A stretch of DNA of 44,636 nucleotides from Bacteroidota bacterium. GTDB lineage: Bacteria; Bacteroidota; Ignavibacteria; Kapaibacteriales; UBA2268. Made by a program: the position numbers and the translations under genes. The DNA is taken from contig JAJXYC010000010.1 of assembly GCA_021780815.1 (NCBI GenBank), positions 1-44,636 of the forward strand. Direction: 5' to 3'. Positions 1 to 42,392 of this stretch are shown one piece after another. A model generated the notes under the pieces. That model was not told where the DNA came from. It worked only from the letters and a program-made list of their open reading frames with translations, and did no database searches. Every line of letters begins with the position of its first letter. Position 1 is the first letter of the stretch.

Positions 1-3000
1 ATAAATTATAGTAGTTACAGAGGCGGAATCTACAATAGTAGAAATTATTTTGGCTTTATAGCCTGAAAAGTATTTTTGCAGGGAAAAAAATATCTACAAT
101 AGTAGAAATTATTTTGGCTTTATAGCCCAATAATCGTAACGAAAACACGATTACGATATCTACAATAGTAGAAATTATTTTGGCTTTATAGCCAACATCT
201 CTTTAAAATTAATCGCTGAATATCTACAATAGTAGAAATTATTTTGGCTTTATAGCCTAATAAATTATAGTAGTTACAGAGGCGGAATCTACAATAGTAG
301 AAATTATTTTGGCTTTATAGCCTGAAAAGTATTTTTGCAGGGAAAAAAATATCTACAATAGTAGAAATTATTTTGGCTTTATAGCCTAAATTTTCTATAA
401 TTGCCATATCGTCAGATCTACAATAGTAGAAATTATTTTGGCTTTATAGCCGACAATTTACAAGAAATTGATGATTTGAATCTACAATAGTAGAAATTAT
501 TTTGGCTTTATAGCCCGTAGTGTTTGGTCGCATTACTGCACAAATCTACAATAGTAGAAATTATTTTGGCTTTATAGCCCCATTGCCAACCAGTTGGGGT
601 AGTATTAATCTACAATAGTAGAAATTATTTTGGCTTTATAGCCTAAGCCAGTCCCCCCATCTGAAACCAAATCTACAATAGTAGAAATTATTTTGGCTTT
701 ATAGCCCATATAGCACTCATGAAATTATCGTGTTATCTACAATAGTAGAAATTATTTTGGCTTTATAGCCTCAGGTGAATTAACCCGCAGATTGGCTATC
801 TACAATAGTAGAAATTATTTTGGCTTTATAGCCATAACAGACAAGGTGTTTTTATGCATAATAATCTACAATAGTAGAAATTATTTTGGCTTTATAGCCC
901 CGTCGAGGTAGTCGATGAATATAGAATCTACAATAGTAGAAATTATTTTGGCTTTATAGCCTTGTTAACTGGCGAAGGTGAGATGTTTAATCTACAATAG
1001 TAGAAATTATTTTGGCTTTATAGCCCTTTTTCGGGTTTTGCTTTTTGCAACATCTACAATAGTAGAAATTATTTTGGCTTTATAGCCTTAATTGATGCCA
1101 AAAAAAAATATGGGAAGATCTACAATAGTAGAAATTATTTTGGCTTTATAGCCGATGCAATCAAGGAACAACAAATAAATATCTACAATAGTAGAAATTA
1201 TTTTGGCTTTATAGCCTTTAGCTTTTCAGGGGGGGTTAATTGATGCATCTACAATAGTAGAAATTATTTTGGCTTTATAGCCTTCAATGTTTCTATAATT
1301 GCCATATCGTCAGATCTACAATAGTAGAAATTATTTTGGCTTTATAGCCTCGAAAAATTCAATGCATTTTGATTTTCGTATCTACAATAGTAGAAATTAT
1401 TTTGGCTTTATAGCCCAATAACATTTGATTTTCAAAAAACAAATATCTACAATAGTAGAAATTATTTTGGCTTTATAGCCATTGGTAGTTGTGTATTTCA
1501 AGGTATTAAATCTACAATAGTAGAAATTATTTTGGCTTTATAGCCGATGGATTCGATGAATTTGCAGCATTCGAATCTACAATAGTAGAAATTATTTTGG
1601 CTTTATAGCCCCGAAAAAGCACACAAACCACAGCCGAAATATCTACAATAGTAGAAATTATTTTGGCTTTATAGCCTATTATTCTTGCAGTTGGCTTCTG
1701 CAAATCTACAATAGTAGAAATTATTTTGGCTTTATAGCCCTGATTCAATCAGACAGGTTATAATTTAATCTACAATAGTAGAAATTATTTTGGCTTTATA
1801 GCCTTCGAATCGGCTGGATGGAACGAAGAAATCTACAATAGTAGAAATTATTTTGGCTTTATAGCCTCCTATTCAAAGAATAGGGAAACATTAAATCTAC
1901 AATAGTAGAAATTATTTTGGCTTTATAGCCCCGAATAATAGCATTCTCTCGAATAATTATCTACAATAGTAGAAATTATTTTGGCTTTATAGCCAAGGTA
2001 AAAAAATGGACAAACAAATTGAATCTACAATAGTAGAAATTATTTTGGCTTTATAGCCTTGCTAAGAAATGCAGAAGAATTATACAAATCTACAATAGTA
2101 GAAATTATTTTGGCTTTATAGCCAGAAACCGTAAACGATAACAATAACAAATCTACAATAGTAGAAATTATTTTGGCTTTATAGCCGTCAAATACGAACC
2201 ATTCAGGGGGTTTCCATCTACAATAGTAGAAATTATTTTGGCTTTATAGCCTTGTGAAGTGAAAGACTTCGCAAGAAATCTACAATAGTAGAAATTATTT
2301 TGGCTTTATAGCCCGACACGATTAAAATGCAAACAACACAGATCTACAATAGTAGAAATTATTTTGGCTTTATAGCCCAACTTTTGTAAGTGATTGCAAA
2401 GCTGATCTACAATAGTAGAAATTATTTTGGCTTTATAGCCACTTCTACGATGCTGAAGGCTATGACCGTATCTACAATAGTAGAAATTATTTTGGCTTTA
2501 TAGCCTAAAAAAAATGTACAATGACCAATTTACAATCTACAATAGTAGAAATTATTTTGGCTTTATAGCCCTTAAATCATGCAAAAATAGCCCGTTTCAT
2601 CTACAATAGTAGAAATTATTTTGGCTTTATAGCCCATCTTACTGATTTTCTCGAAGGTAATGATCTACAATAGTAGAAATTATTTTGGCTTTATAGCCCT
2701 AAAGAATTTAAAGCATCTATTTTTTTAATCTACAATAGTAGAAATTATTTTGGCTTTATAGCCCGCCTGCCATGATGGAACAACCGATAAATCTACAATA
2801 GTAGAAATTATTTTGGCTTTATAGCCCGAGACAAACAAGAATACAAACAACAAATCTACAATAGTAGAAATTATTTTGGCTTTATAGCCCTAACGTTGCT
2901 GATGGGTAAGTATTAATCTACAATAGTAGAAATTATTTTGGCTTTATAGCCGTCAACAGGACTGTTAGCAAAAGCTACATATCTACAATAGTAGAAATTA

Positions 3001-6000
3001 TTTTGGCTTTATAGCCACTATGGCGATAATGCTCGGCTATTTTGGATCTACAATAGTAGAAATTATTTTGGCTTTATAGCCAGGTTTTTCGGACTTACTC
3101 CCGAAAACGATCTACAATAGTAGAAATTATTTTGGCTTTATAGCCCCTCGTTATCTCAGGAGAGGTTCAATTTAGAATCTACAATAGTAGAAATTATTTT
3201 GGCTTTATAGCCGCTATGCTTCGACGGCATCAGTACGACATCTACAATAGTAGAAATTATTTTGGCTTTATAGCCATTTTTAGCATACAAGCAAATATTG
3301 TGCATCTACAATAGTAGAAATTATTTTGGCTTTATAGCCTAAATGAATTTGAAGAAACAACAAAAAAATCTACAATAGTAGAAATTATTTTGGCTTTATA
3401 GCCGTTATGCTTCTATCGGGTAAGAATGCAGATCTACAATAGTAGAAATTATTTTGGCTTTATAGCCTTTTTCGCCGGATTTTCCGACCCATCCTTATCT
3501 ACAATAGTAGAAATTATTTTGGCTTTATAGCCTTTTCACGGTTAGACTGCTTGCCTTCCTGATCTACAATAGTAGAAATTATTTTGGCTTTATAGCCTTT
3601 GTAGAGCTGCAAGCGTGTTATTGGCAGATCTACAATAGTAGAAATTATTTTGGCTTTATAGCCTTGCTCGTATTCTGGACTTACTGATGAATCTACAATA
3701 GTAGAAATTATTTTGGCTTTATAGCCCGAACTAATCCAAGCGGTACGGGTACAACATCTACAATAGTAGAAATTATTTTGGCTTTATAGCCATGATAAAA
3801 ACCGAGACCAACTGGTAAAATCTACAATAGTAGAAATTATTTTGGCTTTATAGCCTCCCGCTCACTAAAGCCGAAGTTTACATCTACAATAGTAGAAATT
3901 ATTTTGGCTTTATAGCCTCGAAAGCTCCTCCGAACTTGCCTTTAATCTACAATAGTAGAAATTATTTTGGCTTTATAGCCCCAATTAACTGAGGTGTTAT
4001 AATGTATCCCATCTACAATAGTAGAAATTATTTTGGCTTTATAGCCCGCAGCTCGAATACGACATTACATTGGGATTATCTACAATAGTAGAAATTATTT
4101 TGGCTTTATAGCCTCTGGTAAAGAGGCATCGCAAGAAGCTAAAATCTACAATAGTAGAAATTATTTTGGCTTTATAGCCTCAATATTATCGTCAGAGGCG
4201 AAGACTCATCTACAATAGTAGAAATTATTTTGGCTTTATAGCCAATGTGGGAAAAACGACAATCCCGGAATATCTACAATAGTAGAAATTATTTTGGCTT
4301 TATAGCCTTTCATCGAGACGTTCCTTCCTTTCGCATCTACAATAGTAGAAATTATTTTGGCTTTATAGCCAGGCTGTTACTTCGATAGTCGAACCAACAT
4401 CTACAATAGTAGAAATTATTTTGGCTTTATAGCCAATTCAACCCTTTTGTAAATTCTCTTAATCTACAATAGTAGAAATTATTTTGGCTTTATAGCCTTC
4501 ATTAGGCTACTGTTACGGCATATAAATCTACAATAGTAGAAATTATTTTGGCTTTATAGCCAAGTATCGAATTACGATTCTCTTTTTAAATCTACAATAG
4601 TAGAAATTATTTTGGCTTTATAGCCTCTGGTAAAGAGGCATCGCAAGAAGCTAAAATCTACAATAGTAGAAATTATTTTGGCTTTATAGCCTTTGTTTAA
4701 TTCTGTTCATTGAATTTTATCTACAATAGTAGAAATTATTTTGGCTTTATAGCCCAATAATTACACCAATAGTAAATATAATATCTACAATAGTAGAAAT
4801 TATTTTGGCTTTATAGCCCGCCGTTATTATAATCAGCAATCAGCAAATCTACAATAGTAGAAATTATTTTGGCTTTATAGCCGCATTTATGTTTGTGTTT
4901 TCGTAATATTTATCTACAATAGTAGAAATTATTTTGGCTTTATAGCCGCGTTCGGTAATAATACGGACATAAATTATCTACAATAGTAGAAATTATTTTG
5001 GCTTTATAGCCAAAAAGTGTTTTAAGGTAAAAAAAAGGAAATCTACAATAGTAGAAATTATTTTGGCTTTATAGCCTCTTGTTGATTCAACCCGTGCATC
5101 ATATCTACAATAGTAGAAATTATTTTGGCTTTATAGCCCCTTGGTTGGCAATATCATGGTTTTTGATCTACAATAGTAGAAATTATTTTGGCTTTATAGC
5201 CCACCATACGAATTAATCAATATTTATTATCTACAATAGTAGAAATTATTTTGGCTTTATAGCCCATGATAAAATCTTGAGAGAATCAGCAAATCTACAA
5301 TAGTAGAAATTATTTTGGCTTTATAGCCTTACCTCGACGGGTTTCAATTCAATATATCTACAATAGTAGAAATTATTTTGGCTTTATAGCCATACAGCGT
5401 TAATATGCGGATCAATTAAATCTACAATAGTAGAAATTATTTTGGCTTTATAGCCGTAATTATTACTTATAATCAAATGGCAAATCTACAATAGTAGAAA
5501 TTATTTTGGCTTTATAGCCCTTTCAACGAATTAGCAAAATCATTTGCATCTACAATAGTAGAAATTATTTTGGCTTTATAGCCCCATATTCAGAGATTTA
5601 TCGACATGCTCCATCTACAATAGTAGAAATTATTTTGGCTTTATAGCCTTTGACGTTGTTGATGACGTCAACACCATCTACAATAGTAGAAATTATTTTG
5701 GCTTTATAGCCCCCTGTCGAACAAGTAGAAACAACAGTATCTACAATAGTAGAAATTATTTTGGCTTTATAGCCAAACTTCGTAAGGTGTCAATCCTTGT
5801 TATCTACAATAGTAGAAATTATTTTGGCTTTATAGCCTGCAAATGTCAGAATTGGTGACTATGTCATCTACAATAGTAGAAATTATTTTGGCTTTATAGC
5901 CTATCGAAGTTACCGAAGAAGAAACCGATCTACAATAGTAGAAATTATTTTGGCTTTATAGCCATGGGGCGGCGAAAATATCCACATTCCATCTACAATA

Positions 6001-7630
6001 GTAGAAATTATTTTGGCTTTATAGCCTATACAGATGCTATCTCTAATGCTAAATCTACAATAGTAGAAATTATTTTGGCTTTATAGCCATGTTTTTTTTC
6101 AAAAAAATATAAATAATCTACAATAGTAGAAATTATTTTGGCTTTATAGCCACAATCGCAATGAAAGCACGATTATGAATCTACAATAGTAGAAATTATT
6201 TTGGCTTTATAGCCATTTCATGCTCCTTGAATTTTTTTTGTATATCTACAATAGTAGAAATTATTTTGGCTTTATAGCCGGTATACATCGCGGCATCTGT
6301 CATTCCAAATCTACAATAGTAGAAATTATTTTGGCTTTATAGCCTTATTAATGGCGGTAGCGGTTCTACTTGGATCTACAATAGTAGAAATTATTTTGGC
6401 TTTATAGCCTGTTGTTCGAGGTTGCCGCGATTAGAATCTACAATAGTAGAAATTATTTTGGCTTTATAGCCCCACAATTGGCTCCAATTCCACAATTGGT
6501 GATCTACAATAGTAGAAATTATTTTGGCTTTATAGCCTCCTATTCAAGGAATAGGGAAACATTAAATCTACAATAGTAGAAATTATTTTGGCTTTATAGC
6601 CAGAAAATTGGAGATTTTAAGACGTTTACATCTACAATAGTAGAAATTATTTTGGCTTTATAGCCTAATTGTTCAGTTAGGGGGTTGGCTCAAATCTACA
6701 ATAGTAGAAATTATTTTGGCTTTATAGCCTTTGCAAGCGGAAACGCTCCCAAGTTAATCTACAATAGTAGAAATTATTTTGGCTTTATAGCCTTGTAATT
6801 TCTGTCGATAAATATCCAAATCTACAATAGTAGAAATTATTTTGGCTTTATAGCCCAATACTCCGACTAAGGAGATATTTCAAATCTACAATAGTAGAAA
6901 TTATTTTGGCTTTATAGCCTATTTTTAAAAACTCGATGAACAAAATATCTACAATAGTAGAAATTATTTTGGCTTTATAGCCCAGAAGCCCCAGAAAAAC
7001 TGAATTCAATATCTACAATAGTAGAAATTATTTTGGCTTTATAGCCTTTACAAGAAAAAAATAATAACAAACAAATCTACAATAGTAGAAATTATTTTGG
7101 CTTTATAGCCGGAAGTATCATAAGTGCAAGCTATATGTTTATCTACAATAGTAGAAATTATTTTGGCTTTATAGCCACCAGCAGGATTACAGTTTTACGG
7201 TAGCATCTACAATAGTAGAAATTATTTTGGCTTTATAGCCGTGAAATGTTTCATAGATATTTTATTTTAAATCTACAATAGTAGAAATTATTTTGGCTTT
7301 ATAGCCTTAAAGAAGTAGAGGGAAAAAATGAGTAATCTACAATAGTAGAAATTATTTTGGCTTTATAGCCGGAAAGCTCCAATAATTAGTATGCCTTATA
7401 TCTACAATAGTAGAAATTATTTTGGCTTTATAGCCGATTGTACCGTATGGCATATTGTTATCGACATCTACAATAGTAGAAATTATTTTGGCTTTATAGC
7501 CTTAAATCCTGGTGTTACAATTGAAGAAAATCTACAATAGTAGAAATTATTTTGGCTTTATAGCCTTACAGCGTATATGCGAACAAATTACACAATCTAC
7601 AATAGTAGAAATTATTTTGGCTTTATAGCC
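1..7630 (-). CRISPR. Type V-A CRISPR array, 119 repeats, truncated at left edge
   Basis: By hand I count 119 copies of one 36-bp repeat (first at 28-63, last at 7595-7630) with 118 complete spacers of about 26-31 nt and a partial spacer at 1-27. All copies look identical, including the most leader-distal ones, so the true array end lies beyond the window. Read on the minus strand the repeat ends in AATTTCTACTATTGTAGAT, the canonical Cas12a crRNA handle (TCTAC/GTAGA stem, TATT loop). Its 5' part, GGCTATAAAGCC, can fold into a second small hairpin. Transcription is therefore leftwards, in the same direction as the cas genes, with the newest spacers near 7630. Some spacers are duplicated or nearly so (see findings). 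Open reading frames crossing the array are translations of the repeats, not genes. Confidence 0.99.
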
Positions 7631-7806
7631 CGTTCTTTAAAAAGAACTTTTACAAAATTACTAATTTATAATATATTTACCAAATTTATTATAAATTATT
7701 TTTCACCCCCTTACTTTTTTATTCAATTATCAAAGAACTTATCTACCAATAATTTACACAGAATTCGCATCCTTTGTTTTTTATAGAAAGACCCATCTTT
7801 GCAATT
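7631..7806 (-). promoter_or_regulatory. CRISPR leader with promoter for the array
   Basis: This is the AT-rich stretch between cas2 and the first repeat. On the minus strand it holds TTTG (7681-7684), a 20-nt gap, then TAATTTTG (7653-7660), an exact match to the Bacteroidota -33/-7 promoter pattern. Transcription would start about 10-20 nt before the first repeat. An inverted repeat GTTCTTT/AAAGAAC (7632-7647) lies one base from the first repeat, where spacer integration takes place; a role as a leader anchor is inference. Confidence 0.8.
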
Positions 7807-8082
7807 TTAAGGGAAATATAGCAAATCTTGGTCTCTATGAATTGCGTTCCCATATTTTGTAGTTTTATTGTTATCTGTTTCAAAAATCAAAATACTATCT
7901 CCGCCATCAAATTGTTTTGCAAATTTACTTTCTATTTTAATTTTTAAAACCTCTTGTATTCTTTTTGTATTATTGACTTCAAAAACGGAATACTGCAAAC
8001 GAATACCACCATTTTGTTCTAACATTTTAGAGAACTGCCTTCTTAGCTTATCATCTGATATATCATAACTTACTATTAACAT
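7807..8082 (-). CDS. cas2: CRISPR-associated endonuclease Cas2
   Basis: This 91-aa protein is of normal Cas2 length. It opens with the beta-strand motif MLIVSYDISD, with the conserved Asp at residue 7, and has the ferredoxin-like pattern of the family, including the QYSVFEV strand. Cas2 dimers bridge two Cas1 dimers in the spacer-integration complex. The gene is the last of the operon, starts 7 bp after the cas1 stop codon, and is followed directly by the leader and array. Family assignment is firm from the motif, length and position. Confidence 0.96.
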   Translation of the reverse strand: MLIVSYDISDDKLRRQFSKMLEQNGGIRLQYSVFEVNNTKRIQEVLKIKIESKFAKQFDGGDSILIFETDNNKTTKYGNAIHRDQDLLYFP

Positions 8083-8089
8083 AAGATAT

Positions 8090-9061
8090 TTATTTAATTA
8101 AAAAGCGTGGAAAATTAGGGACGCTTTTCCTTTGCATAAAAGCTCTATAATAATCCCTAACATATACAAAAACATTGGATTTATATTGGATTAATTCATC
8201 ATAAAACATTTTTGTATAAATACTATTTTTTTCATATTTTAGAACATATTCATTTTTAAATAGGTTAAAGTCTTCATTTTTACATTGTTTTGTATTAAAA
8301 GCATTACGTACTTTTCTGTCAATGATACACCTAAAAGGTTCAACTAAATCGCAAATTAACGATTTACGTCTAAACCATAATTTATGGTACACACCTATAT
8401 ATGGGTCAAAGCCAAATAATCTAACGAATGATTCTATAAAATTGAATAAGATGGTGTATCCGATATCGAGAGTAGAATTTAAGGGATCTATTTTTGCTCT
8501 TGGGTACCGTGATTTCCAACCTAAATCTTTAAAATAAGCGGAGAAATAAGTTTTTGCAACACGTCCTTCTAAGCTTAATAACGAATCATAATCGCTAATA
8601 TCAGGAATAGATAATAATGATTTTTTACATTGGTCTTTTGCTTTTTGAATTGTATCTATTTTCAATCTAGTATTAGTTAATATTTTAAGTTGATTTTGTA
8701 TTTTATTTTCAACTAAAATTTTCGGGATTTGCAAATCGTTTTTGTCGTATTCGTATTGTTTTTGTCTTAATAAATAATTGGCTTCGGCAGTAATAGAAAA
8801 GAAAAAAACAGGGCGAAAATTAGTTTTCGTAACAACAATTGGAATTCCGTATTTCGTGCATTTATCTATTAATGCTGTTGTGATAGATATATGCCCAATA
8901 ATGAAAAGTGCTAAAATTTTTTGGAATGGTATTTTGGTTAAAGTTTTATTTTCTTTTGTATCTTCGAGAAAAAGTTCTCCATTAACAACTCTTAAAGTTT
9001 TGTTATCTAAGCAGTTGATAACGAATATAGAACGAAATTCAATATCTTTATTCGTAAACAT
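8090..9061 (-). CDS. cas1: CRISPR-associated integrase Cas1
   Basis: At 323 aa this has a typical type V Cas1 length. The metal-binding triad is visible: Glu165 in SLEGRVAKTYF, His226 in GVYHKLWF, and Asp238 in CDLVEPFR, with the expected spacing. Cas1 inserts new spacers at the leader end with Cas2, and Cas4 selects and trims prespacers. The start codon lies within the end of cas4 (14-bp overlap), suggesting translational coupling. Nothing appears degenerate, so spacer acquisition is probably functional, consistent with the long array. Confidence 0.97.
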   Translation of the reverse strand: MFTNKDIEFRSIFVINCLDNKTLRVVNGELFLEDTKENKTLTKIPFQKILALFIIGHISITTALIDKCTKYGIPIVVTKTNFRPVFFFSITAEANYLLRQKQYEYDKNDLQIPKILVENKIQNQLKILTNTRLKIDTIQKAKDQCKKSLLSIPDISDYDSLLSLEGRVAKTYFSAYFKDLGWKSRYPRAKIDPLNSTLDIGYTILFNFIESFVRLFGFDPYIGVYHKLWFRRKSLICDLVEPFRCIIDRKVRNAFNTKQCKNEDFNLFKNEYVLKYEKNSIYTKMFYDELIQYKSNVFVYVRDYYRAFMQRKSVPNFPRFLIK

Positions 9062-9614
9062 TATTTACCTCAGTTTTATCGCATAAATTGCTATAAATAC
9101 AGTGTGAACATTTATTTTTATTAGTTTGGATAACATCAGCGGGATTATAATTTTTAAATTGATTAATAAAGTTAATTAATTCGTTTTTATTTTCAGTTGT
9201 TGGGATATTAATAGGGAATAATTTGTTGTCAGATAATGAATAAAAAGCTAATTTGTTTATTGAATAACCCATCTCGGTCATACAGAAGTATTGTGCCCAA
9301 ATTTGATAATATTGTCCTTGATAGATAGTAGAAAGTTTGTATTTTCTCTCTACAAGTAATTTTTCTTTTGTTTTATATATATCAATTTTTCCAATTACAC
9401 CAAGTTCATTACTATAAACAGATAAAGAAGTTATTTCATTTTTGTGAGTAGAATATGTTTTGTTATCAATTGATAGATGTATTTCTTTTCCTTGTGCTTG
9501 TGGTGGGGCAGTAACCAGATTTTCATCTCCGCCCATATACACATTATGTAAATAAATAGAATATGGGCAAAAGATGAAATCGTTAAGGGATGATATGGGT
9601 ATATACTCAAACAT
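9048..9614 (-). CDS. cas4: Cas4 Fe-S exonuclease of the adaptation module
   Basis: The 188-aa protein carries the Cas4 signature: Cys16 in the FCPYS motif and a C-terminal trio Cys169, Cys172 and Cys178 that together would hold a 4Fe-4S cluster. The PD-(D/E)xK nuclease core is visible as Asp78 in GKIDIY and Glu89-x-Lys91 in VERKYK, followed by a QxxxY-like helix (QGQYYQIWAQY). In type V-A systems Cas4 helps choose prespacers with the right PAM and sets their orientation. The gene begins 2 bp after the stop of the second effector and overlaps cas1 by 14 bp, so it sits inside the same operon. Confidence 0.95.
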   Translation of the reverse strand: MFEYIPISSLNDFIFCPYSIYLHNVYMGGDENLVTAPPQAQGKEIHLSIDNKTYSTHKNEITSLSVYSNELGVIGKIDIYKTKEKLLVERKYKLSTIYQGQYYQIWAQYFCMTEMGYSINKLAFYSLSDNKLFPINIPTTENKNELINFINQFKNYNPADVIQTNKNKCSHCIYSNLCDKTEVNNVYE

Positions 9615-9616
9615 GG

Positions 9617-12600
9617 CTATAAATTTTGCAACCCTCTTTTTGCAATATTGAATGCAGCGATTTTATCATTGTCATCTAAGCTTTCAAGTCCCAATGGATT
9701 ATTCTTGTTATGGAAACCACATTTACTACAATAAAATACTTTAATCTTTTTATCTTCAAGATAATTAGGATTTTTACTACTTGCATAAGCTTTTTCGTTA
9801 CAGTTTGGACAAGTTAAACTTGTATCTTCTTCGCTTACAAATTTGATTAAGCCAAATTGTTTTATAGTTTCATTTTTAGGTTGCTTATTTTCTTTTACTG
9901 GAAATTTTTCAATCTCTCTTAATTTAATAAGTTCGCTAATGGGAGGCACCAATCCTTCTTGCTGAAACTTTCGATACAATGCCCATTCGAAAGGTCTTTC
10001 AATGTTGCCTTCAAAATTTTTTCTGTCCGATTCAACTTTGGTTTGCTTTAAATCTTCAATTGAAATAATGCCCGGATATTGCTGATACAAGAAATAAATT
10101 ACACCTATCATATTACCCACTAAAGCTCTTCGTGTCTGGTTAATTTGTTTTTCTGCTTTTGCTTCATTTTTTTTTTGATTGGCAAAATAGGCAAACAGGT
10201 CATCTCTAATTTTCTGATGAGGTTTAATATGTTCAAAATCCACTCTGCTTATATAAATTTTATCTTCTTTTCCTTCTATTTCCAAATAGAGGTTGAAATC
10301 TTTTTCTTTTAATTCAGCTTGTGGATTTATAATTAATTTCTGATATATTTTTCGATGAGCGTGCAATATTTTTAAATTTAAGAGAGTGGTTATGTCACCA
10401 TTTGTTACAATCTTTCCATTTATCACTTTAGCAGTGGTTAAATCAATAGAAGACACCTGTTTTTCTCCAAACAATTCATTGAATGTATCCTGAAATTTAC
10501 CATCTCTGAATGTTTTGTCATAAAGATCTTTATTCAAAAAATAGGATAAGTTTTGAATTGCTTTGTAAGGATTATTGCGTATCATCAATTCATGCTCTTT
10601 GTTATAAATGTATCCTTGTTTGGAAAAATCCAATTTTTTAAGTTCATAAACAGTAAACAATTGTGGTTTTTTGTCTTTATTCATTAATGCTAAAGTTGCT
10701 AATTCCACCTCTCCTGCATCAATACCATAAAACCATAACTTATTGTTGTTGAGGTTTTCTTTTAGCGTCCGATTAATTTTATCGTTAAACTTACCGATTT
10801 CAGTTCCTTTGGTCTTTGTATCCTTAAAAGCAAAAGTAATCTCGTTGCTCAATGCATTATCTGTAAATGTTGTGTTAAGAGTATATTGCTCATGCAAATA
10901 TCTGTTTCGTTTTGTCGGGTCATACAATTTAGAGTCTTTTCCGTATTTTTCTACTCTTGTTTTCTTTGCTATTCTCCAACTAATTGATATTTCAGGATTC
11001 AGACGCAGATTGTAGTTCTGTTCTTCATTTTGTTTTGTCCAGAAGCGCTTCCAAATTTGTGTGTGTGCTTTCAGATTCTTTTGTTCATCTTTTTGCAAAT
11101 CAAGGCTTGTAATCTTAAATATTTGAGCATTATACTTCTCAAGTATTTCTTTTTTCAATGTTTCGGAAACGATTTGCTCCTTTGCATAACAACACTTTTC
11201 CAAGGCTATTTGAAAATCTTGTAAAGAGGTAAATGATTGAACCGCCACTTCATCAAAAACACTTTTAGGCAAAGCCAAATTATTTTTTACAAAATCAGTT
11301 TTTAAAACTTCCTGATAGAAAGATATTAATTTAGGTTCATCTATTTCTTTATCGTCTTTGCTTTTATAAAAACAGAATTCTCCAAACTCTTTTTGGTTAT
11401 ATTTAGGCAATTCTTTTTGGATTTCAGGTAAAAAAGTATTGCCGTTTATCCCAAAGCATAATTTGCGTAATGCACGATAAGTCATAGATTCAAAATAATA
11501 TAATGAAGGATTTGAACATTTGTGTTCCTCTTTTGACGCACGAACCTCTTTATAAACTTCAAACGCATTTTCTTTAGGGATTAAAATCAATGAATGTTTT
11601 TGTTTTTCTTCTAAAACTAAAGCCCAATATTGTAACCTTTGCGAATCAATTCGTTCCTTTTCTATTTCTTTTATTTGGGCTTCTAGTCTGCCTTTTTTGG
11701 CTGCAATTTCTTTATATAACTGACGAATTTTAATGTAAGTTTTAAATTTTTTTTTGAAATAACTACTTCTCTCTCTTTTTAATTTAGTTATCTCCTTCTG
11801 AAGATGTTGAGCTTCGGAACTGCTTTTTGAAAGTAAACTTTTGGCTTTACTTTTTTCTGTTATCTTGTTTGTGAGTTTTATAAACTCTGCATATTTATCC
11901 GATTCGATTTGAAATAAAGGGAACTTACTTTTTAAATCATTATAACCTAAACCAGTGGAAACAGCTTCTAAAAATTTTGATTTTTGATAAGATTTGCATT
12001 CTTTGATTTTTGAATAGAATTCTACCAAAGGCAATTCTTTGGAAGCGATTATCTTTAATTCTTTAAGTATCTTGTCATAATCAGGTTTGCAATATCTTGA
12101 ATCCAATTGTTTTTTAAGTTGATCAATTTCTTTATCAAAATCCTTTCGTTTTTTATTGACTGTATAATAATTAAAACTTGCTTTGGCTATTACAATGCCC
12201 GAAGATTGGGAAGGTAAATAATTCTGTTCTGCTATACTTAATACCTCTTCAAATTTATTAAGTAAAGCCGTTAGTTTGCTTTTCGTTTTTTCGGTGTTTT
12301 TGTCATTGCTATTTTCAACAAAGCTTTTTATAAACGGGAACATTTGTCTTGTTCCAAGTTTCTTGATTGAAAGAGCAATTTCTGCATCTCTTGTTTTAGA
12401 TTCTTCTGGTCTATTGCTATCGGTATTTAATCTTTCAATAGTGGTTTTCCATTCATTAATAAATTCATCAAATACATATGATAAATAATTAACATCGTTG
12501 ATTTTGATTTTCTTTTCTGTATCGTCTTTTTTCCAATTGTAAAACAAATCTTTGGTAAATAAACGCAACCAACGAAAATGAATAGTGATATTTGATTTTA

Positions 12601-12802
12601 GCTTATGATTGTCATCAAATCTGATAAATTCATCCAACATCTTCGGTAATTCTTGCCCCATTTGAATCAATTTCAAAAGATAATTCTTTTTTGATTCTTC
12701 TGTAGAAAAATTTTGTAGATTTTCAATTTGATTACTTATGCCCTGAATTTTATCAGGCACTAATTTGAATCGAATGCTTTTTGTGATTTTATATTTTTTC
12801 AT
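9617..12802 (-). CDS. cas12a2: Second Cas12-family effector, Cas12a2/Cas12a3-like RNA-triggered nuclease
   Basis: This 1061-aa protein shares only the general Cas12a plan. Its N-terminus (KKYKITKSIRFKLVP) resembles the start of the Cas12a WED domain. The RuvC acids are intact: Asp695 (GIDAGE), Glu916 (ISIEDL) and Asp1046 (DNDKIAAFNIAKRG). Between the last two is a zinc ribbon (Cys998, Cys1001, Cys1025, Cys1028) where Cas12a has its Nuc domain. Residues about 310-400 are lysine-rich and likely coiled coil. Cas12a2 proteins are known to sit beside cas12a, share its crRNAs, carry a zinc ribbon and, when activated by target RNA, degrade nucleic acids and arrest the cell. Cas12a3, a related clade, is reported to cut tRNA tails. 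The protein seems shorter before RuvC than the Cas12a2 of about 1180 aa that I remember. Which clade it belongs to cannot be settled by eye, so the symbol is provisional. Confidence 0.8.
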   Translation of the reverse strand: MKKYKITKSIRFKLVPDKIQGISNQIENLQNFSTEESKKNYLLKLIQMGQELPKMLDEFIRFDDNHKLKSNITIHFRWLRLFTKDLFYNWKKDDTEKKIKINDVNYLSYVFDEFINEWKTTIERLNTDSNRPEESKTRDAEIALSIKKLGTRQMFPFIKSFVENSNDKNTEKTKSKLTALLNKFEEVLSIAEQNYLPSQSSGIVIAKASFNYYTVNKKRKDFDKEIDQLKKQLDSRYCKPDYDKILKELKIIASKELPLVEFYSKIKECKSYQKSKFLEAVSTGLGYNDLKSKFPLFQIESDKYAEFIKLTNKITEKSKAKSLLSKSSSEAQHLQKEITKLKRERSSYFKKKFKTYIKIRQLYKEIAAKKGRLEAQIKEIEKERIDSQRLQYWALVLEEKQKHSLILIPKENAFEVYKEVRASKEEHKCSNPSLYYFESMTYRALRKLCFGINGNTFLPEIQKELPKYNQKEFGEFCFYKSKDDKEIDEPKLISFYQEVLKTDFVKNNLALPKSVFDEVAVQSFTSLQDFQIALEKCCYAKEQIVSETLKKEILEKYNAQIFKITSLDLQKDEQKNLKAHTQIWKRFWTKQNEEQNYNLRLNPEISISWRIAKKTRVEKYGKDSKLYDPTKRNRYLHEQYTLNTTFTDNALSNEITFAFKDTKTKGTEIGKFNDKINRTLKENLNNNKLWFYGIDAGEVELATLALMNKDKKPQLFTVYELKKLDFSKQGYIYNKEHELMIRNNPYKAIQNLSYFLNKDLYDKTFRDGKFQDTFNELFGEKQVSSIDLTTAKVINGKIVTNGDITTLLNLKILHAHRKIYQKLIINPQAELKEKDFNLYLEIEGKEDKIYISRVDFEHIKPHQKIRDDLFAYFANQKKNEAKAEKQINQTRRALVGNMIGVIYFLYQQYPGIISIEDLKQTKVESDRKNFEGNIERPFEWALYRKFQQEGLVPPISELIKLREIEKFPVKENKQPKNETIKQFGLIKFVSEEDTSLTCPNCNEKAYASSKNPNYLEDKKIKVFYCSKCGFHNKNNPLGLESLDDNDKIAAFNIAKRGLQNL

Positions 12803-12808
12803 ATTACA

Positions 12809-15800
12809 TTATTTTTTAAAATTTTGCACAAACTGTAACCATTCTTTATTGCTAATTGCTAATTTAAGTTTTTTCAAATCTTCGGTTTGTTTTATTTGTT
12901 CAATTACCCAAAGTCCTTTTCGAGCAATGTTATATGCTCCGTTGGCATCGGCATTTTTTGGCAAATTATCGCTAGCCAGACGGCTATCGAAGAAAACGCC
13001 ATTTTTGTCAGCAACAGGCGAAATCAAATAGTCTATATCCGTACCTGTTATGCTATTGCGCATTTGCAAAGTGAGTTTTAATAAATGGAGCAACCATTCA
13101 AAAAAGGCTTTTTCGGTTTGCCGGTTAATGGCAACTTTAAGTTCTTCGTTGCTTTTATACCTTATGCCGTATTGCTCAAATAAATTTATAAACTCTTCAG
13201 TCAGTAAAATTTCACGATTATCCCATTGATTGTTTTTTTTCGGATTGCGGAAAGTTTCAATCCTATCTTTGTAGGTGCAAAGTGTCCATTGGGTTTTAGT
13301 GCCTTCGGCTTTAGTCGTAAAATTATTGTAGTCAAATTCAAACTCAAAATAGTTCTTTGTTTGATTATAACGTATTGAGTTGAATTTATCGAAGAAAGAT
13401 TTTGCTTTTTCCATATTTTCGTAGCGGGTATCAAACAGGTTTACAAAACCTGTTACGGGGTCCATTTTGCTAGTATTCCAAGCGGGAATATAAAACAGGA
13501 ATCCGCTCTGTTTTTGGTTCCTAAGTGAATCTATATTATAAATTCCAGTTAATTGTAATGCATGCAATATTCCTCCTCTTTCGTCCGAACTTTTCTTCTT
13601 ATCTACTAAGTAATTCAGTTTGTCAATCAGCATTTTTTCAAATTTCTGATATACTTGTTTTTCCACTTTTTGCCGACCACGCATAAAACCCATGTTCAGG
13701 TCTTCGAGCACTACAATGGCGTTGTATTCCACCATCAACTCACTTATTTTATGAATTACCTGACTCAGATAACCCTCTTTCAGCTCTTTGATGGTTTCAA
13801 TGGTTTTCCAGTTCTTGCGGGCTTCGTCACGGTTGCCTTCGCGGTTATCAAGCAATTTGTGATAATCGGTTTTGTAGGTTTTATCCTCATATTCGTTTAC
13901 AATCTCGTTGAGCGAGAATTGTTTTTTGATAGCTCCCTCACTATCAATAAGCGTAAGATACAGCAAATGCCTTTCACCCCGGTCGATACCAATAATATAT
14001 CTCTCTGAATTTTCTTTTAGGCTTTCTAAGGCTTTGTGATTAATTTTCTCGTTGAAAGATTGTATAAATTTTAATGCAGGAACTTTCAACGGAGCTTTAA
14101 AGTTCATGGTTATAGGCACATGAAACTGAAATTTGTCCACCGTGTAGCGTTTGTCTTTGATTATATCGTATTCAAACCGGCTTTGCCTTTTGGCATTCTG
14201 TTCATTCTTATTGTTTATGGCTTTGTGAGCTTTGTGTACAATTATATTTTCGGGCTTTATGCTCGATTTACGGAAGAACACCTCGGCTTGTCCATTCAGT
14301 TTATATACTACATCTTTCAGATTATCGGCATCGAAAAGCATTTTCCAGTAAAGCGTGTGCAGGTTGGGAGTTCCTTTGCTGTTAGGCGAAAAGTCTTTGT
14401 TGTAAAGTTGGAAAAGATAAAGATTGCCTTCTTCCACCAATTGATTAATATAACTTTCGGGAATTTTTTTGAAATTTATTTTATATCCTTGATGTTCCAC
14501 TTCCCTGTAAAATTCGCTTAAATCATTATAACTTTTCGTGTCCGAAAATTGAAATTCAAAGTGCTTCCAATCTTCGTGTTTGTTTATAGATGATTTAAAG
14601 AAATCAATTAATTCGTGGCAATGTTGAAGATTAAATTTATCTCCTTTTTTATGAGTTTCGTTCTGATAATGTTCCAGCAGTTCGGTACTTGGCTTAAATT
14701 CGTTAATTCTGGAGTTAGAAAAGAAAACTTTTGGGAGCATTTTATTGGCACCAGGCAAAAGTTTATATTCCATTTTTTCATAACAAGTTTCGTTGGTGTT
14801 TTCAAAATCTTTTTTAAAGATTTTGTTGTATTTTTTGTTCATAATACCTAAGTAATACAGCCCGTCTTTTCTAAAAATGAGGCTGGTATTATCGGATTCT
14901 TTGTTTACATCCCAACCGCCTAACAATGTTGAATTTTCGAAATTCAATTTTATTTTTTCGGTCGAATATGGTTTACGGGTCATGTAATTTCGCACTTTGT
15001 TGTAAAGCGGCGTAATTTGGTCGAGTGTCATCCAAAGCGAAGTGAATTCACCGTAAAACCGTTCATCTTTTTCCGCTTCATTGCCTTTACCCAGCAAAGG
15101 CTTTATAAACCATTGCAGGTTTTTTATGCTGTCGAGAAAAAGTTTGATTTTATCCACACTAATTTGGTCGTGTGCCAAGTCTTTCTCTTTCGGAAATGGA
15201 TTATTAAGCAAATCTGTAATTTGATGGTAATTATTTTGAATTTGAAGAAACAAGTTTTCTGTTTTTTCTTCTTCGGTGTTCCGTTTGCCCAATTGTTTGA
15301 AATAATCTTCTATTCTTTTGTGATAATCGGTATTGTCAAGCAAAAGCAAACATTCATTTATAAAACCAATAGAAAAACTATCCTGATTTCTGAAATATTT
15401 CTTTTGTTCTTCTTCATACTTTTCTGTCCCTGGCTTTTTCTTCCCTTTGTAATTCATGTCAAACCAAGCATTCATGGCTTTCTGGAACACTTCCCAATTG
15501 CCAAACATTTTTTGTGAAATATCGGTTAAGTTTAAATCTTTGCGCAGGTATATTTTATGCAAATCAAAATCATGCAGGTTTTGAAGGAGTTCTTTTAATG
15601 GAGATAAAGCATGTATGTTGATTTCCTGATACAGTTTTTCAATACTTTCTAATACTTCGTTTCCATCTTTAAATTCTTCGGGAATAAACGAAGCAGTTGA
15701 GCGGTCGCTCAATATTTGTTTGAAAAGCGGTTTCAGCTTTGGAATCCGTTCTTCTTTTTTAGCCGTTTGATTAAATAAGTTGATGTATTCGTTTAATCCT

Positions 15801-16570
15801 TTTATTTTTTCTTTACCATCTTCGGGAGTAAATCCGCCAATTAAATGATTATAAATATCAATGCCTGTTTGTGAAAGCGTTTTATTAAAATATTCCAGCG
15901 AAAACATTTCTTCAACCGAAGGTACTTGAATAATAAGTCCTAATTCATTATCAGAAAGTATTATCTGAAATTTTTCTTTAATCGGCGAGCTTTTTATTTT
16001 TTCGAAAGTCCGCATATTATCCAAAAACTTGGGCAGGTTTTGATGAATAAGACGGTACGCAATGGCGGTGGATTTATCTTCGGCGGAATACATATTTTTC
16101 CGGTTTTCGTGAAAACCTGTAAAGTAAGTAGTAAAGTTATCAAATTCTGCTATTAGTTTTTTTTCTTCTTCAGTTTGAACGAATGCTTTTAAATCGTTTT
16201 TAATTAATTCTTTTTCAAAAAGATTTTTATAATGCTTATGTTTAGTAAATCTATCGGCAATTTGTTTTCGTAATTTCGCTTGTAGCTCTTCAAACTTTTT
16301 CTTTTCTTCTTCGCTTCTTTTCGATTTTTTATATAATTCCTCATATTCTTTTAATCCGGTTAAGTTAAATTCTTCCAGCGCCTTTGTAATAAATACTTTG
16401 TGGTATTCATCAATGATTTTTTTTACTAATATGTAACTTTCGGCTCTATGTTTGTCTTCTTTTAATAATTCGTTTGTTCTTACTAATTCCAATGTTCTTC
16501 CCTGTGGGATTAATTCAAAACGTAATGTCTTTTGAATTGAATACAAATTTGTAAAATTATTCATAGACAT
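12809..16570 (-). CDS. cas12a: Cas12a (Cpf1) crRNA-guided DNA endonuclease
   Basis: The protein is 1253 aa from the ATG at 16570. I prefer this start because GGAGG lies 5 nt upstream; the reading frame also has an ATG at 16582, but that codon overlaps the GGAGG. Hallmarks, numbered from 16570: PAM-reading loop LLPGANKMLPKVFF with Lys610; pre-crRNA processing residues His779, Lys788 and Lys805 with the same spacing as His843/Lys852/Lys869 of the Francisella enzyme; RuvC acids Asp863 (GIDRGERH), Glu956 (VVLEDLN) and Asp1208 (NADANGAYNIA); and the Nuc arginine Arg1171 (LQMRNS). All known functions (crRNA maturation, T-rich PAM reading, staggered dsDNA cutting) should be intact. It is the first gene of the operon; the second effector starts 6 bp after its stop codon and may depend on Cas12a for crRNA processing. 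Confidence 0.98.
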   Translation of the reverse strand: MSMNNFTNLYSIQKTLRFELIPQGRTLELVRTNELLKEDKHRAESYILVKKIIDEYHKVFITKALEEFNLTGLKEYEELYKKSKRSEEEKKKFEELQAKLRKQIADRFTKHKHYKNLFEKELIKNDLKAFVQTEEEKKLIAEFDNFTTYFTGFHENRKNMYSAEDKSTAIAYRLIHQNLPKFLDNMRTFEKIKSSPIKEKFQIILSDNELGLIIQVPSVEEMFSLEYFNKTLSQTGIDIYNHLIGGFTPEDGKEKIKGLNEYINLFNQTAKKEERIPKLKPLFKQILSDRSTASFIPEEFKDGNEVLESIEKLYQEINIHALSPLKELLQNLHDFDLHKIYLRKDLNLTDISQKMFGNWEVFQKAMNAWFDMNYKGKKKPGTEKYEEEQKKYFRNQDSFSIGFINECLLLLDNTDYHKRIEDYFKQLGKRNTEEEKTENLFLQIQNNYHQITDLLNNPFPKEKDLAHDQISVDKIKLFLDSIKNLQWFIKPLLGKGNEAEKDERFYGEFTSLWMTLDQITPLYNKVRNYMTRKPYSTEKIKLNFENSTLLGGWDVNKESDNTSLIFRKDGLYYLGIMNKKYNKIFKKDFENTNETCYEKMEYKLLPGANKMLPKVFFSNSRINEFKPSTELLEHYQNETHKKGDKFNLQHCHELIDFFKSSINKHEDWKHFEFQFSDTKSYNDLSEFYREVEHQGYKINFKKIPESYINQLVEEGNLYLFQLYNKDFSPNSKGTPNLHTLYWKMLFDADNLKDVVYKLNGQAEVFFRKSSIKPENIIVHKAHKAINNKNEQNAKRQSRFEYDIIKDKRYTVDKFQFHVPITMNFKAPLKVPALKFIQSFNEKINHKALESLKENSERYIIGIDRGERHLLYLTLIDSEGAIKKQFSLNEIVNEYEDKTYKTDYHKLLDNREGNRDEARKNWKTIETIKELKEGYLSQVIHKISELMVEYNAIVVLEDLNMGFMRGRQKVEKQVYQKFEKMLIDKLNYLVDKKKSSDERGGILHALQLTGIYNIDSLRNQKQSGFLFYIPAWNTSKMDPVTGFVNLFDTRYENMEKAKSFFDKFNSIRYNQTKNYFEFEFDYNNFTTKAEGTKTQWTLCTYKDRIETFRNPKKNNQWDNREILLTEEFINLFEQYGIRYKSNEELKVAINRQTEKAFFEWLLHLLKLTLQMRNSITGTDIDYLISPVADKNGVFFDSRLASDNLPKNADANGAYNIARKGLWVIEQIKQTEDLKKLKLAISNKEWLQFVQNFKK

Positions 16571-17280
16571 GATATCCTCCATTATTTTGATTTATAATTT
16601 GTTTATTGAAAAAAATAATATCAATAATGTTATTCTTTTGCTATTTAATTTATCAAATTCGTTTGTATAGTGAGAACTCAACTGGATTTGTAGTATTATT
16701 GCTGACTTAATATTGCAATTTGTTTCTGTTGAGTTAATTCGTTGTAAGTATCTTTATCAAAATTACGAAATTTTTGCCAATTCACAACAGATATTTTTTT
16801 AAATTTATAAAAATTAATTCACAATATTCTACTATATTTTATTTCAATATAAATCATAAATTTGCAAAAATTTAAAATTAAAATTTCAATTTAATATCTT
16901 GATTATTTATTTAAAAATATCTATGGAACTTGAATTTGAGATAGATTGTAAATATAAATTAACTGCCAATAGAAGCAAAAAACTTAGTAGAACAATTGAT
17001 TGAGTGATTAATGTCTCTAATGATAATAAGCGACGTATTTTTGTAATTTAAATTGTTAAATAAATAAAATGAATCTGGACATAAAGAAGCAATGCCGCAT
17101 CACGATATTTGTATTTATTGAAATTTCCATATAATTGTTCTTTTGTACTTTTATTGGTCTTGTATTTTTTGTAAAGCAAATCTATTTAGTATTTTTGATT
17201 ATCGTGTTAGCATAATTTTTTATTTGCGGGATGTATAAAATAAAGATTGTTTACACTTCTTATGCAGGTTATTTCTATAA
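16571..17280. other. AT-rich intergenic region upstream of cas12a
   Basis: About 700 bp without a convincing gene. It contains the candidate cas promoter (16758-16787) and an untranslated leader of roughly 170-180 nt with an inverted repeat AACTCAAC (16675-16682) / GTTGAGTT (16728-16735). A 26-codon frame at 16923-17003 (plus) is too short to support. No second CRISPR repeat or tracr-like anti-repeat was seen here. Confidence 0.6.
16758..16787 (-). promoter_or_regulatory. Candidate promoter of the cas operon
   Basis: On the minus strand TTG (16785-16787) is followed by 19 nt and TAATTTTG (16758-16765), matching the Bacteroidota TTG / TAnnTTTG pattern. The same -7 octamer occurs in the CRISPR leader. 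It would give a cas mRNA with a leader of about 170-180 nt. In DNA this AT-rich a chance match is possible; the position upstream of the first operon gene supports it. Confidence 0.5.
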
Positions 17281-26820: not shown

Positions 26821-29187
26821 ATGTATAAATTATTTTGTAATTTTATGATACTCATTCTTGCCCAAACACTTTTTGCTCAATCATTATATAAATGGGAAGA
26901 TTGTACAAAAGGTTTAGAAGGTGTATCTCGGAATGTACTTATATATTCATACGAAAATGTCTTGTATTTGCGTTCACAGTTAAATACATTTTATTCCACA
27001 AATCTTGGAATAAATTGGAAGCCATTTAAAAGGTATGATTCAAATTTTAAATGTTTAACTTATCTTAGCATATCTTTTATAAATAAATATAAAAATATTT
27101 ACATTTTAACAAATGATTTTGGTCACTATATTTCAAATGATAAGCAGAATTGGCAAAAGTTAAAATTTGAATTACCTGATTTGCCAAGCAATAATGTGAT
27201 GACGGATAATATTAATTTAATAACTACTGATTCTACAATAATTTTAAGAGTTGTTTGGTACGAAAAAATTGATTCAACAAAATATTTGGAGCATAAACGA
27301 ACCTGTATTGCTAAAGGAATTGGGAATGATATTTCTGAAACCTATAAATTTGATACTTTATCGGAAGAAAATGATTATATTACGACTGAACAAGAAAAAT
27401 ATTTTACTTATTTAAATATAGATGGAATTGTTTACTCAATCTACTATACTTTACAAGGTCGTTATTTTAGTTATTATTACTTTTCAACAGATAATGGAGA
27501 AAGTTGGAGAAAAAAAGAAATATCGAATATTGAAGGTGGTATAAAAACACTTGTCAAAATTAATGGTAAATTATGGATAATTTCACCATTTGCATTGTGG
27601 CGCCCCAAAGATGATGGAACATACGAAAAGGTTGAAGATGAACAATTTGATAGTTTCAATACGGATTTTCTTTCTGAACATAAAGGAATGATTTATGCTC
27701 AAGCTATAGACAGCAGTAATCATAAATCCATATTAGTTCGTTCAATCAGTAATGGTTTAACTTGGGAAAAAGTTGGAAACCAATATTTTAAAATTAAACA
27801 ATTATTTTCGATTAATGGAGAATTAATAATTAAAAGTTCTAAGGGCATAATGGCTTCAACTGATGATGGAGAAAGTTGGGAAGAAAGAGAACAAGGTTTA
27901 TTTCAATCACCAAATTATAATGATGAAGGTCCATGGAAAAAAATAATTCAAGTAGGTGAAAATGAATGTATTACTGCACCAAGGAACGGTATGAATAATG
28001 TTATGATGAAATCTTATGATGGTGGTAAGACTTGGGAACATAAATATGTTATTGATTCAATTGGTTATACTGAATATGATTGGACTGGTGAGCTTTATAA
28101 TTTCACTTTTTCATCTAATAAATATGGTTTGTTTGCTGTGGACAGAGGTAGTAATAAAACTTATAAATCTTATGATAAGGGAGAAACTTGGGAAATTTAT
28201 TCAAATGTGGCAGCTTTTTACAAAGATGAAGATAAAAATATGTACGAAAGAAATGATACCTTGCTATATTTTTATGATGACCCATACTTTCCAAATGATA
28301 AATTCATATATTATTCTTTGGATACAGGAAAAACATTTGTAATTTATGATTCTCTATACCTTCAAAAATTACCAGAAAAAAGTGAGCATTTATTTGTAAA
28401 AAACGGTCAATATTTTGCTATCGATAACGAAAATACGATATATAACTCAACAAATGAAGGGAAAAATTGGGATATATTTACAAAAATCATTTTACCCGTT
28501 AAAGATTCATTATATAAGGTATTCTATTATGATGTTACTTCCGATAAACCAATATTAGTTTTTGGATATAAAGATAATCCAAATTATCCAAGTTTTACAC
28601 AAAAGACTCTGTTATCGCCATTATATTATACTGAGGATTTCGGCAATACGATTAATAAATTCAATTTACCTACGATTTCCTGGGTAATCCCTGTAAATCT
28701 GGACAACAAATACAAATTTGTTTATTTACAAAACCATTTAATTGTATTTCTTCAAGGTAGTTCTCAAAAATATTATGGATTATTTGAATTTGATAAGGAA
28801 AAAAATGACTGGACTGATATAACACCAGAACTAAACGGGAATGTTATAACAGATATTTTTCCGGTTGACGAATATTTGTACATTAGCACCTATGAAGGAT
28901 TATTCCGAACAAAAATTAATCCAGTATCTGTTCAAGAAAAAACAGAAAAAACAACACTATTGCCAATAGAATTATATCCCAATCCCGCAATAGATGAAGT
29001 AAATATTCTAAACAATTATTACACAATTGACCAAATAACAATATATGATATGCTTGGTAGAGAAGTAACCAAGCCATTTTTCACACAAGATAACTTTGAG
29101 ATAAGAGGTATTAAAGAAGGTTTTTATTTTGTAAAGTTAACTTTTGAAGGTGGGTGGTCAGTTTACAAAAAAATAATTAAACAATAA
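26821..29187 (+). CDS. T9SS-secreted Asp-box (BNR) propeller protein
   Basis: The 788-aa protein has an N-terminal signal peptide (ending near LFAQS). About nine or ten Asp-box-like turns are spread along the chain: STNLGINW, STDNGESW, SISNGLTW, STDDGESW, SYDGGKTW, SYDKGETW, SLDTGKTF, STNEGKNW and others. Such turns mark sialidase-like or Ycf48/VPS10-like beta-propellers, although no enzyme active site is evident. The last 80 residues (LYPNPAIDEVNI ... ITIYDMLGREV ... GFYFVKLTFEGG) form a type A T9SS sorting domain, so it should cross the outer membrane and stay surface-bound or be released. GGAG precedes the start. Binding target unknown. Confidence 0.88.
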   Translation: MYKLFCNFMILILAQTLFAQSLYKWEDCTKGLEGVSRNVLIYSYENVLYLRSQLNTFYSTNLGINWKPFKRYDSNFKCLTYLSISFINKYKNIYILTNDFGHYISNDKQNWQKLKFELPDLPSNNVMTDNINLITTDSTIILRVVWYEKIDSTKYLEHKRTCIAKGIGNDISETYKFDTLSEENDYITTEQEKYFTYLNIDGIVYSIYYTLQGRYFSYYYFSTDNGESWRKKEISNIEGGIKTLVKINGKLWIISPFALWRPKDDGTYEKVEDEQFDSFNTDFLSEHKGMIYAQAIDSSNHKSILVRSISNGLTWEKVGNQYFKIKQLFSINGELIIKSSKGIMASTDDGESWEEREQGLFQSPNYNDEGPWKKIIQVGENECITAPRNGMNNVMMKSYDGGKTWEHKYVIDSIGYTEYDWTGELYNFTFSSNKYGLFAVDRGSNKTYKSYDKGETWEIYSNVAAFYKDEDKNMYERNDTLLYFYDDPYFPNDKFIYYSLDTGKTFVIYDSLYLQKLPEKSEHLFVKNGQYFAIDNENTIYNSTNEGKNWDIFTKIILPVKDSLYKVFYYDVTSDKPILVFGYKDNPNYPSFTQKTLLSPLYYTEDFGNTINKFNLPTISWVIPVNLDNKYKFVYLQNHLIVFLQGSSQKYYGLFEFDKEKNDWTDITPELNGNVITDIFPVDEYLYISTYEGLFRTKINPVSVQEKTEKTTLLPIELYPNPAIDEVNILNNYYTIDQITIYDMLGREVTKPFFTQDNFEIRGIKEGFYFVKLTFEGGWSVYKKIIKQ

Positions 29188-29740: not shown

Positions 29741-31186
29741 ATGAAAAAATTATCATTTATCCTAATAATTATTATTTTTTTTATTCATAAAGGTTTTGCA
29801 GATTGGGAGCCTTTTCATATAAACAGTAATTACACATATTCTTTAAAGGATAATAAGGAAAGAGTTGTAAACATTCTGTTCGACTCTGTTGCTCAAAAAG
29901 GTAAATATACAATCCTTTATTCTTCGAAATTTATTGAAGATAGAAAATTTAGTTGTATTGATTCTTTGGAACATTCCATACGTGCCAAAAATTTATATCA
30001 GAGTAGATTGGTTCCTGATTCAATCTGTTTTGATGATAAATATATTTATTTTCAACTACCGAATTCTTCAAAAAATTATTTATATTTCCCATATAATGGC
30101 AATATTGGGGATTCCGTAATAACCCAAAAATCAGATTATTTAAATTATCTCTTTAAAATTGAAAATAAAGAATATAGTTTATCATCAGATTCAGTCATAA
30201 CAATTGGCGTTTATGAAGTTGGGAGCAATAATTCTTATAGTAAAAAAGTAACGACATTAAAAATTAGTAAAATGTTAGGTTTTTTGCAATACTCTACTTT
30301 TAATACATATTACATCAGTGAACTTGAATTAGAAGGTGTAAAATCAACTGAAAATCAAATAGGTTTTGTAGCAACAAATGAAGATATTTCGAGAATGGCA
30401 AATAATATAATTAAAGCTTTAGGTTCTTATCATACAGGTGATATGCTTTCTTGGTATATTGATGATTATAACATTGAAAATTCAGGTTATTATCTTGATT
30501 CTATAACAAATGTAATTTATGAGGGAAATAAAAAAATATTTTTCTTTAATCGTACGAAATATTTTAATAATTATAAGGTTTATTCAAATGGACAGTATAT
30601 AATTGATTCAACTGAGTTGTATGCTCAATTCACAAAACCAATAAATTCTTTCAATTTAAATATTCCATATATTTTTATAACTCAAGACGAAGAAGAATGG
30701 GGGCGCCCCGTTCATTATTTAGATTGCTACTACAAAACGGAAAATAATGTCTTAAAAGATTCTTTGTCAATCAAATATTATGGTACATTTGTTAATAGTA
30801 ATTGTATGCCAACTTCACCAACTGATGTGGATTATAGTTGCGAATTCAACGGAACTACGGGATTTGCTGAATATAAATATGGCAATGGAAATATTATTTT
30901 ATTAGGAATAAAGCTAAGTGATGGAACAATTATAGGAAATTACAATATAGTTTCCGTTCAGGAAAATGATATAACTTCAAGGTTTCTTTCCCCAAATCCA
31001 GTATTTGATAAACTCAATTTATATAATTTGCCAGCAAATGCAAGGAGTTACGAGATTTACGACCAACTGGGAATAAAAGTCAGAGGTGGAATAATTGCAA
31101 ATGAAATCGATGTTTCCACCCTTACCGCAGGAATATATTTCATAAAAATAGATAATGAAAAAGTGAGGAAATTTGTAAAGATATAG
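29741..31186 (+). CDS. T9SS-sorted exported protein of unknown function
   Basis: The 481-aa protein has a signal peptide (MKKLSFILIIIIFFIHKGFA) and a C-terminal T9SS type A sorting domain from about residue 410 (LSPNPVFDKLNLYNL ... AGIYFIKIDNEKVRKFVKI). The central 380 residues show no family that I recognise; they are rich in Ser, Tyr and Asn and probably mostly beta-structured. A good AGGAGG (29728-29733) sits 7 nt before the ATG. The last part of the gene is a DNA module nearly identical to the end of the gene at 34083-35447. Confidence 0.85.
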   Translation: MKKLSFILIIIIFFIHKGFADWEPFHINSNYTYSLKDNKERVVNILFDSVAQKGKYTILYSSKFIEDRKFSCIDSLEHSIRAKNLYQSRLVPDSICFDDKYIYFQLPNSSKNYLYFPYNGNIGDSVITQKSDYLNYLFKIENKEYSLSSDSVITIGVYEVGSNNSYSKKVTTLKISKMLGFLQYSTFNTYYISELELEGVKSTENQIGFVATNEDISRMANNIIKALGSYHTGDMLSWYIDDYNIENSGYYLDSITNVIYEGNKKIFFFNRTKYFNNYKVYSNGQYIIDSTELYAQFTKPINSFNLNIPYIFITQDEEEWGRPVHYLDCYYKTENNVLKDSLSIKYYGTFVNSNCMPTSPTDVDYSCEFNGTTGFAEYKYGNGNIILLGIKLSDGTIIGNYNIVSVQENDITSRFLSPNPVFDKLNLYNLPANARSYEIYDQLGIKVRGGIIANEIDVSTLTAGIYFIKIDNEKVRKFVKI

Positions 31187-42384: not shown

Positions 42385-42392
42385 AATCATTC

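Follow-up and report, generated by a model that had tools for sequence, protein, structure and literature searches.

Locus organization

The window is a 44,636-nt stretch of DNA from a Bacteroidota genome, with a CRISPR array at its left end followed by a cas operon; by its gene families the locus is assigned to type V-A CRISPR-Cas. The following features are referred to below, with spacer numbers (#) counted from the leader.

1-27, minus strand: partial spacer, with a whole copy at 258-286; start of contig C15; a further 13 repeats of the array lie on contig C20
1-386, no strand assigned: site of the contig break and of a block duplication; 1-127 is exactly repeated at 260-386
28-7630, minus strand: type V-A CRISPR array, 119 identical 36-bp repeats and 118 whole spacers
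1088-1246, minus strand: spacers #102 (1088-1117) and #100 (1217-1246), with an 11-nt target overlap and TTTG before #100
4114-4655, minus strand: stretch between the identical spacers #55 (4114-4143) and #47 (4626-4655)
7631-7806, minus strand: AT-rich leader of 176 bp, separating the first repeat from cas2
7807-8082, minus strand: cas2 (TIGR01573, PF09827)
8090-9061, minus strand: type V cas1 (TIGR04329, 413.9 bits)
9048-9614, minus strand: type V cas4 (TIGR04328, 247.4 bits)
9617-12802, minus strand: second effector, assigned by homology to the Cas12a3 group, 1061 aa, without the tRNA-loading domain
12809-16582, minus strand: cas12a, 1257 aa (TIGR04330, 1568.6 bits against a cut-off of 300)

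The repeat, ATCTACAATAGTAGAAATTATTTTGGCTTTATAGCC, occurs in 119 copies at 28-7630, where shuffled sequence leads to an expectation of 0; every copy is identical, which bears out the uniform 119 repeats counted in a sequence-only reading of the window. An Rfam search gave no match. Spacers in the window are 26-31 nt long with a mode of 28. The crRNA strand is the minus strand (GGCTATAAAGCCAAAATAATTTCTACTATTGTAGAT), continuing the direction of the cas operon, whose order is cas12a, second effector, cas4, cas1, cas2, leader and array; because the array continues the operon and leader on this strand, the newest spacers lie near 7600 (the newest of all at 7566-7594) and the older ones follow toward base 1.

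The V-A locus of Francisella novicida U112 (PMC13034035, PMC9419969) similarly contains cas12a, cas4, cas1, cas2, leader and array; loci of this type have in common with the window 36-nt repeats ending TTTCTACT...GTAGAT and spacers of about 27-29 nt, and they use a TTTV-type PAM, which is likewise suggested for the window. What sets the present locus apart is an array of 132 or more repeats and the presence of a second effector within the operon. Of the 54 genomes searched in the host's family, 123 in its order and 391 in its class, the host's own is the only one with a type V cas1 scoring over the family cut-off; this rarity in the host's own groups fits sporadic horizontal gain.

Distal end and length of the array

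Base 1 of the window is the first base of contig C15 and not the end of the array; the array reaches this base, and the earlier claim that it runs past the window therefore stands. The first 127 nt of the window recur exactly at 260-386 and the first 128 nt do not; this suggests that the assembly graph broke here, at a repeated stretch left unresolved, and the figure of 127 nt would agree with an assembler working on a k = 127 graph. Counted across the genome, the repeat occurs 119 times on one strand and 13 times on the other, and among the starts of the other contigs that of C20 proves to hold the array in inverted orientation: positions 1-66 of C20 match window positions 1-66 exactly as their reverse complement. 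This overlap spans a whole repeat, the greater part of one spacer and the first 3 nt of the spacer after it. C20 carries 14 repeats, one of which is common to the window, so that 13 are added; five match the window type, and the nine after them have G in place of A at position 13 of the repeat (crRNA strand), one of the nine also having a 1-nt insertion and another a further substitution. Beyond the variant repeats lies ordinary sequence, then a gene which by eye resembles dihydroorotate dehydrogenase. Joined across C15 and C20, the full array has at least 132 repeats and at least 131 spacers; of the repeats, the newer 123 do not differ from one another and the nine oldest are variant. The sequence-only reading took the repeats to be free of visible decay as far as the distal end; the real distal end, on C20, carries variant and decayed repeats, and decay appeared to be absent because the contig breaks at base 1.

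The join of C15 to C20 has the 66-nt overlap as its sole basis: in two same-genus genomes the genes flanking the site are arranged differently and so do not confirm it. Since the repeats sit on different contigs, and the same-genus gene order gives no sign that the two adjoin, the genome could instead hold a second array on C20, separate from that in the window but built on the same repeat and having one spacer in common with it; however, the overlap is exact, in the right orientation and at both contig starts, and the genome has only one cas1 of this type, which makes separate arrays very unlikely. Inflation of a shorter array by the assembler, the outcome named earlier as one that would overturn the long array, is very unlikely because the spacers are unique: 128 of the 131 are distinct, and an assembler cannot make unique spacers. 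Such expansion would draw on the contig break, which interrupts the array where 127 nt are exactly repeated, and on the neighbouring identical pairs #114/#118 and #115/#119, which mark duplication of a 4-unit block at that break; the copy number of this block is uncertain by a few units. The remaining identical pair, #47/#55, is eight units apart, and the array shows little internal rearrangement.

For comparison, a cas12a protein query was run against a collection with one genome per species and the best 80 of 142 matches were taken; arrays were counted by script in flanks of at most 10 kb, two counting scripts differing by several repeats at some loci, and the sample leans toward short arrays because long arrays break assemblies. 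Among these best 80 of 142, the 45 complete V-A arrays have a median of 15 repeats (the largest being 68, 44, 42, 40 and 38), and 13 further arrays, truncated where a contig or locus ends, have at most 56. With its 132 repeats the present array is about twice as long as the longest complete array in the sample, which supports the earlier statement that it is long for type V-A and sets a high mark for type V-A length; no length distribution for V-A arrays was found in the literature searched. In the sampled arrays, too, most inner repeats are the same, and the mismatches present are concentrated distally; as this pattern is usual, the uniform interior seen here is ordinary. Against related loci, then, the array is unusual in its length, while its uniformity is no special feature. 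Next to the present array in total repeat number comes a sampled cas12a locus (L130) whose operon is flanked on both sides by arrays, one with about 32 repeats and the other with 56 or more.

Spacer content and probable self-avoidance

Three pairs of spacers are near-duplicates, each pair being variants of one target: #17 and #90 differ by one mismatch, #99 and #113 are identical in their first 24 nt, and #100 and #124 differ by a one-base length change; these pairs show repeated capture from varying related targets. Two overlapping spacer pairs allow the flank of a protospacer to be read: an 11-nt overlap places TTTG upstream of the #100 protospacer (0.03 such overlaps expected by chance) and an 8-nt overlap places TTTA upstream of the #27 protospacer (about 1 expected by chance). 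Together they suggest a TTTV PAM.

Comparison with virus and plasmid sets, proposed earlier as a check, yielded no convincing target. Phage and plasmid searches with a stretch of the array returned only chance-level or repeat-driven matches, and six single-spacer scans of viral contigs gave no match; thus no protospacer outside the array was found for any spacer tested, in phages and plasmids or, for the spacers scanned, in viral contigs. Two candidates were rejected: an 11-piece phage match (H1) is only a short stretch resembling the repeat, and a 28-nt stretch matching a genome from the same family is of low complexity and lacks a TTTV flank. In the host genome, searched with the spacers of the window and with a limit of five scored candidates per genome, only the array and C20 match strongly; the next matches, at 38 bits, are at chance level.

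The sequence-only reading was puzzled by a nuclease that carries more than a hundred possible triggers without killing its host. On the antisense strand the array flanks read ATCTA at 119 of 119 positions, and the PAM-side flanks are AGAT, not TTTV, again in 119 of 119. Targets flanked by AUCUA, the repeat complement, do not activate SuCas12a2, and its authors attribute to this the prevention of recognition of antisense array transcripts (PMC9811890); by analogy, the window's nuclease would obey the same self-flank rule. Given AUCUA self flanks, no TTTV on the PAM side and no self-target seen for the window's spacers among the candidates scored, the long array should need no special tolerance, and the puzzle dissolves.

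The second effector

The protein encoded at 9617-12802 was taken earlier to be Cas12a2-like. A single-sequence search of solved structures with this companion of Cas12a returns only Cas12a3 (E 1e-143 and 2e-129), and a profile of five relatives scores 1,127 and 1,103 bits to the Cas12a3 structures in contrast to 63.7 bits to SuCas12a2; on these alignments it is not Cas12a2 and belongs with the Cas12a3 group. SuCas12a2 (8D49; PMC9811890) is an RNA-triggered relative whose gene can occur in tandem with cas12a, the two having one array in common, and its AUCUA repeat flank is the same as that of the window; its match to the companion is nevertheless weak, 64 bits by profile and none by single sequence. 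The decayed far end and the identity of this partner are the two points on which the window alone misleads.

Ba1Cas12a3 (9HLX; PMC12851939) is the companion's best sequence match, and both the RuvC triad and the zinc ribbon are kept: D695, E916 and D1046 match D712, E1032 and D1137 of the Ba1 RuvC domain as read from alignments, and the zinc-ribbon cysteines are present. What the companion lacks is the tRNA-loading domain, which in Ba1Cas12a3 comprises residues 855-960 (PMC12851939); companion residues 835-848 stand against Ba1 residues 858-955, that is, 14 aa versus about 98. Cas12a3 cleaves tRNA tails, and deletion of the tRNA-loading domain from Ba1Cas12a3 cut cleavage strongly (PMC12851939); because of this effect, the domain-less group would either cleave another substrate or load tRNA differently. 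AlphaFold gave a poor model of the companion (mean pLDDT 52), which was left unused.

A Cas12a3-group gene lies directly beside cas12a in four of the 80 sampled loci (L122, L114, L120 and L127; best 80 of 142 matches), the hosts being Smithella sp. SCADC, an Elusimicrobia MAG, a Campylobacteraceae MAG and a Bacteroidales MAG; no relative was found in viral contigs. The length of the tRNA-loading stretch varies in steps: it is 116 aa in the Bacteroidales protein (L127), 74 aa in that of Campylobacteraceae, 53 aa in that of Elusimicrobia and 38 aa in both the Smithella protein and the companion. The Smithella locus (JQDQ01000121.1, L122) has cas12a followed by a 1064-aa companion which is 73% identical to that of the window and likewise without the tRNA-loading domain, then cas4, cas1 and the array; it differs from the window in its 40 repeats, a different 5' half of the repeat and a distant host. 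The set without the tRNA-loading domain may be Cas12a4 or an unnamed group.

Probable growth and use of the array

Observed directly in its anatomy, length, distal decay, variant spacers and flanks, this is a real, unusually long, otherwise ordinary V-A array. It is considered very probable that the locus is genuine, probably working and sporadic in its lineage, with an array that has grown at the leader and lost few spacers, whose crRNAs probably serve both nucleases and whose flanks avoid self-activation. Cas4-Cas1-Cas2 would add spacers of about 28 nt adjoining TTTV at the leader (7631-7806), the leader-side repeat being copied at each insertion; such copying would account for the long runs of identical repeats, and thereby for the 123 newer repeats being identical while the nine oldest keep an older base and begin to decay. 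The A/G border would then mark a single change of the leader-side repeat about 123 insertions ago. Growth would have come from repeated capture from varying related mobile elements and one block duplication, with few spacers presumably lost; very active adaptation and little spacer loss, the two causes named earlier for the length, would look alike in a single genome. The crRNAs probably serve Cas12a, for DNA cleavage, and the Cas12a3-group nuclease, which would be triggered by RNA; self-activation would be avoided since array transcripts carry the AUCUA flank and array DNA is without a TTTV PAM.

The array might otherwise be a silent relic, long and uniform from recent fast acquisition and no longer used, to which the absence of targets in the collections searched would be agreeable. 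All cas genes, however, are open and full-length with strong family scores, the second effector keeps its RuvC and zinc-ribbon residues and the newest 123 repeats are perfect; a relic is very unlikely. The array is an ordered internal record of 123 identical newer repeats, nine older variants and repeated capture of target variants.

It is possible, if somewhat short of probable, that this 131-spacer memory is common to Cas12a and a Cas12a3-group nuclease which is naturally without the tRNA-loading domain and so cleaves a substrate other than tRNA tails; together with the Smithella and Elusimicrobia proteins it would form a distinct RNA-triggered branch, unless this is the published Cas12a4. 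A partner lacking the tRNA-loading domain would offer a clear test of the natural role of that domain, and the companion nuclease is a more interesting object than the array beside it.

Elsewhere in the window, several secreted proteins with Por_Secre_tail (type IX secretion) signals, indicative of a Bacteroidota host, are encoded on the plus strand at 26821-29187, 29741-31186 and 34083-35447; between them, at 31591-34074 (plus strand), lies an open frame of 827 aa with no Pfam match. A DUF1828 protein is encoded near the right end of the window (41605-42390, minus strand).
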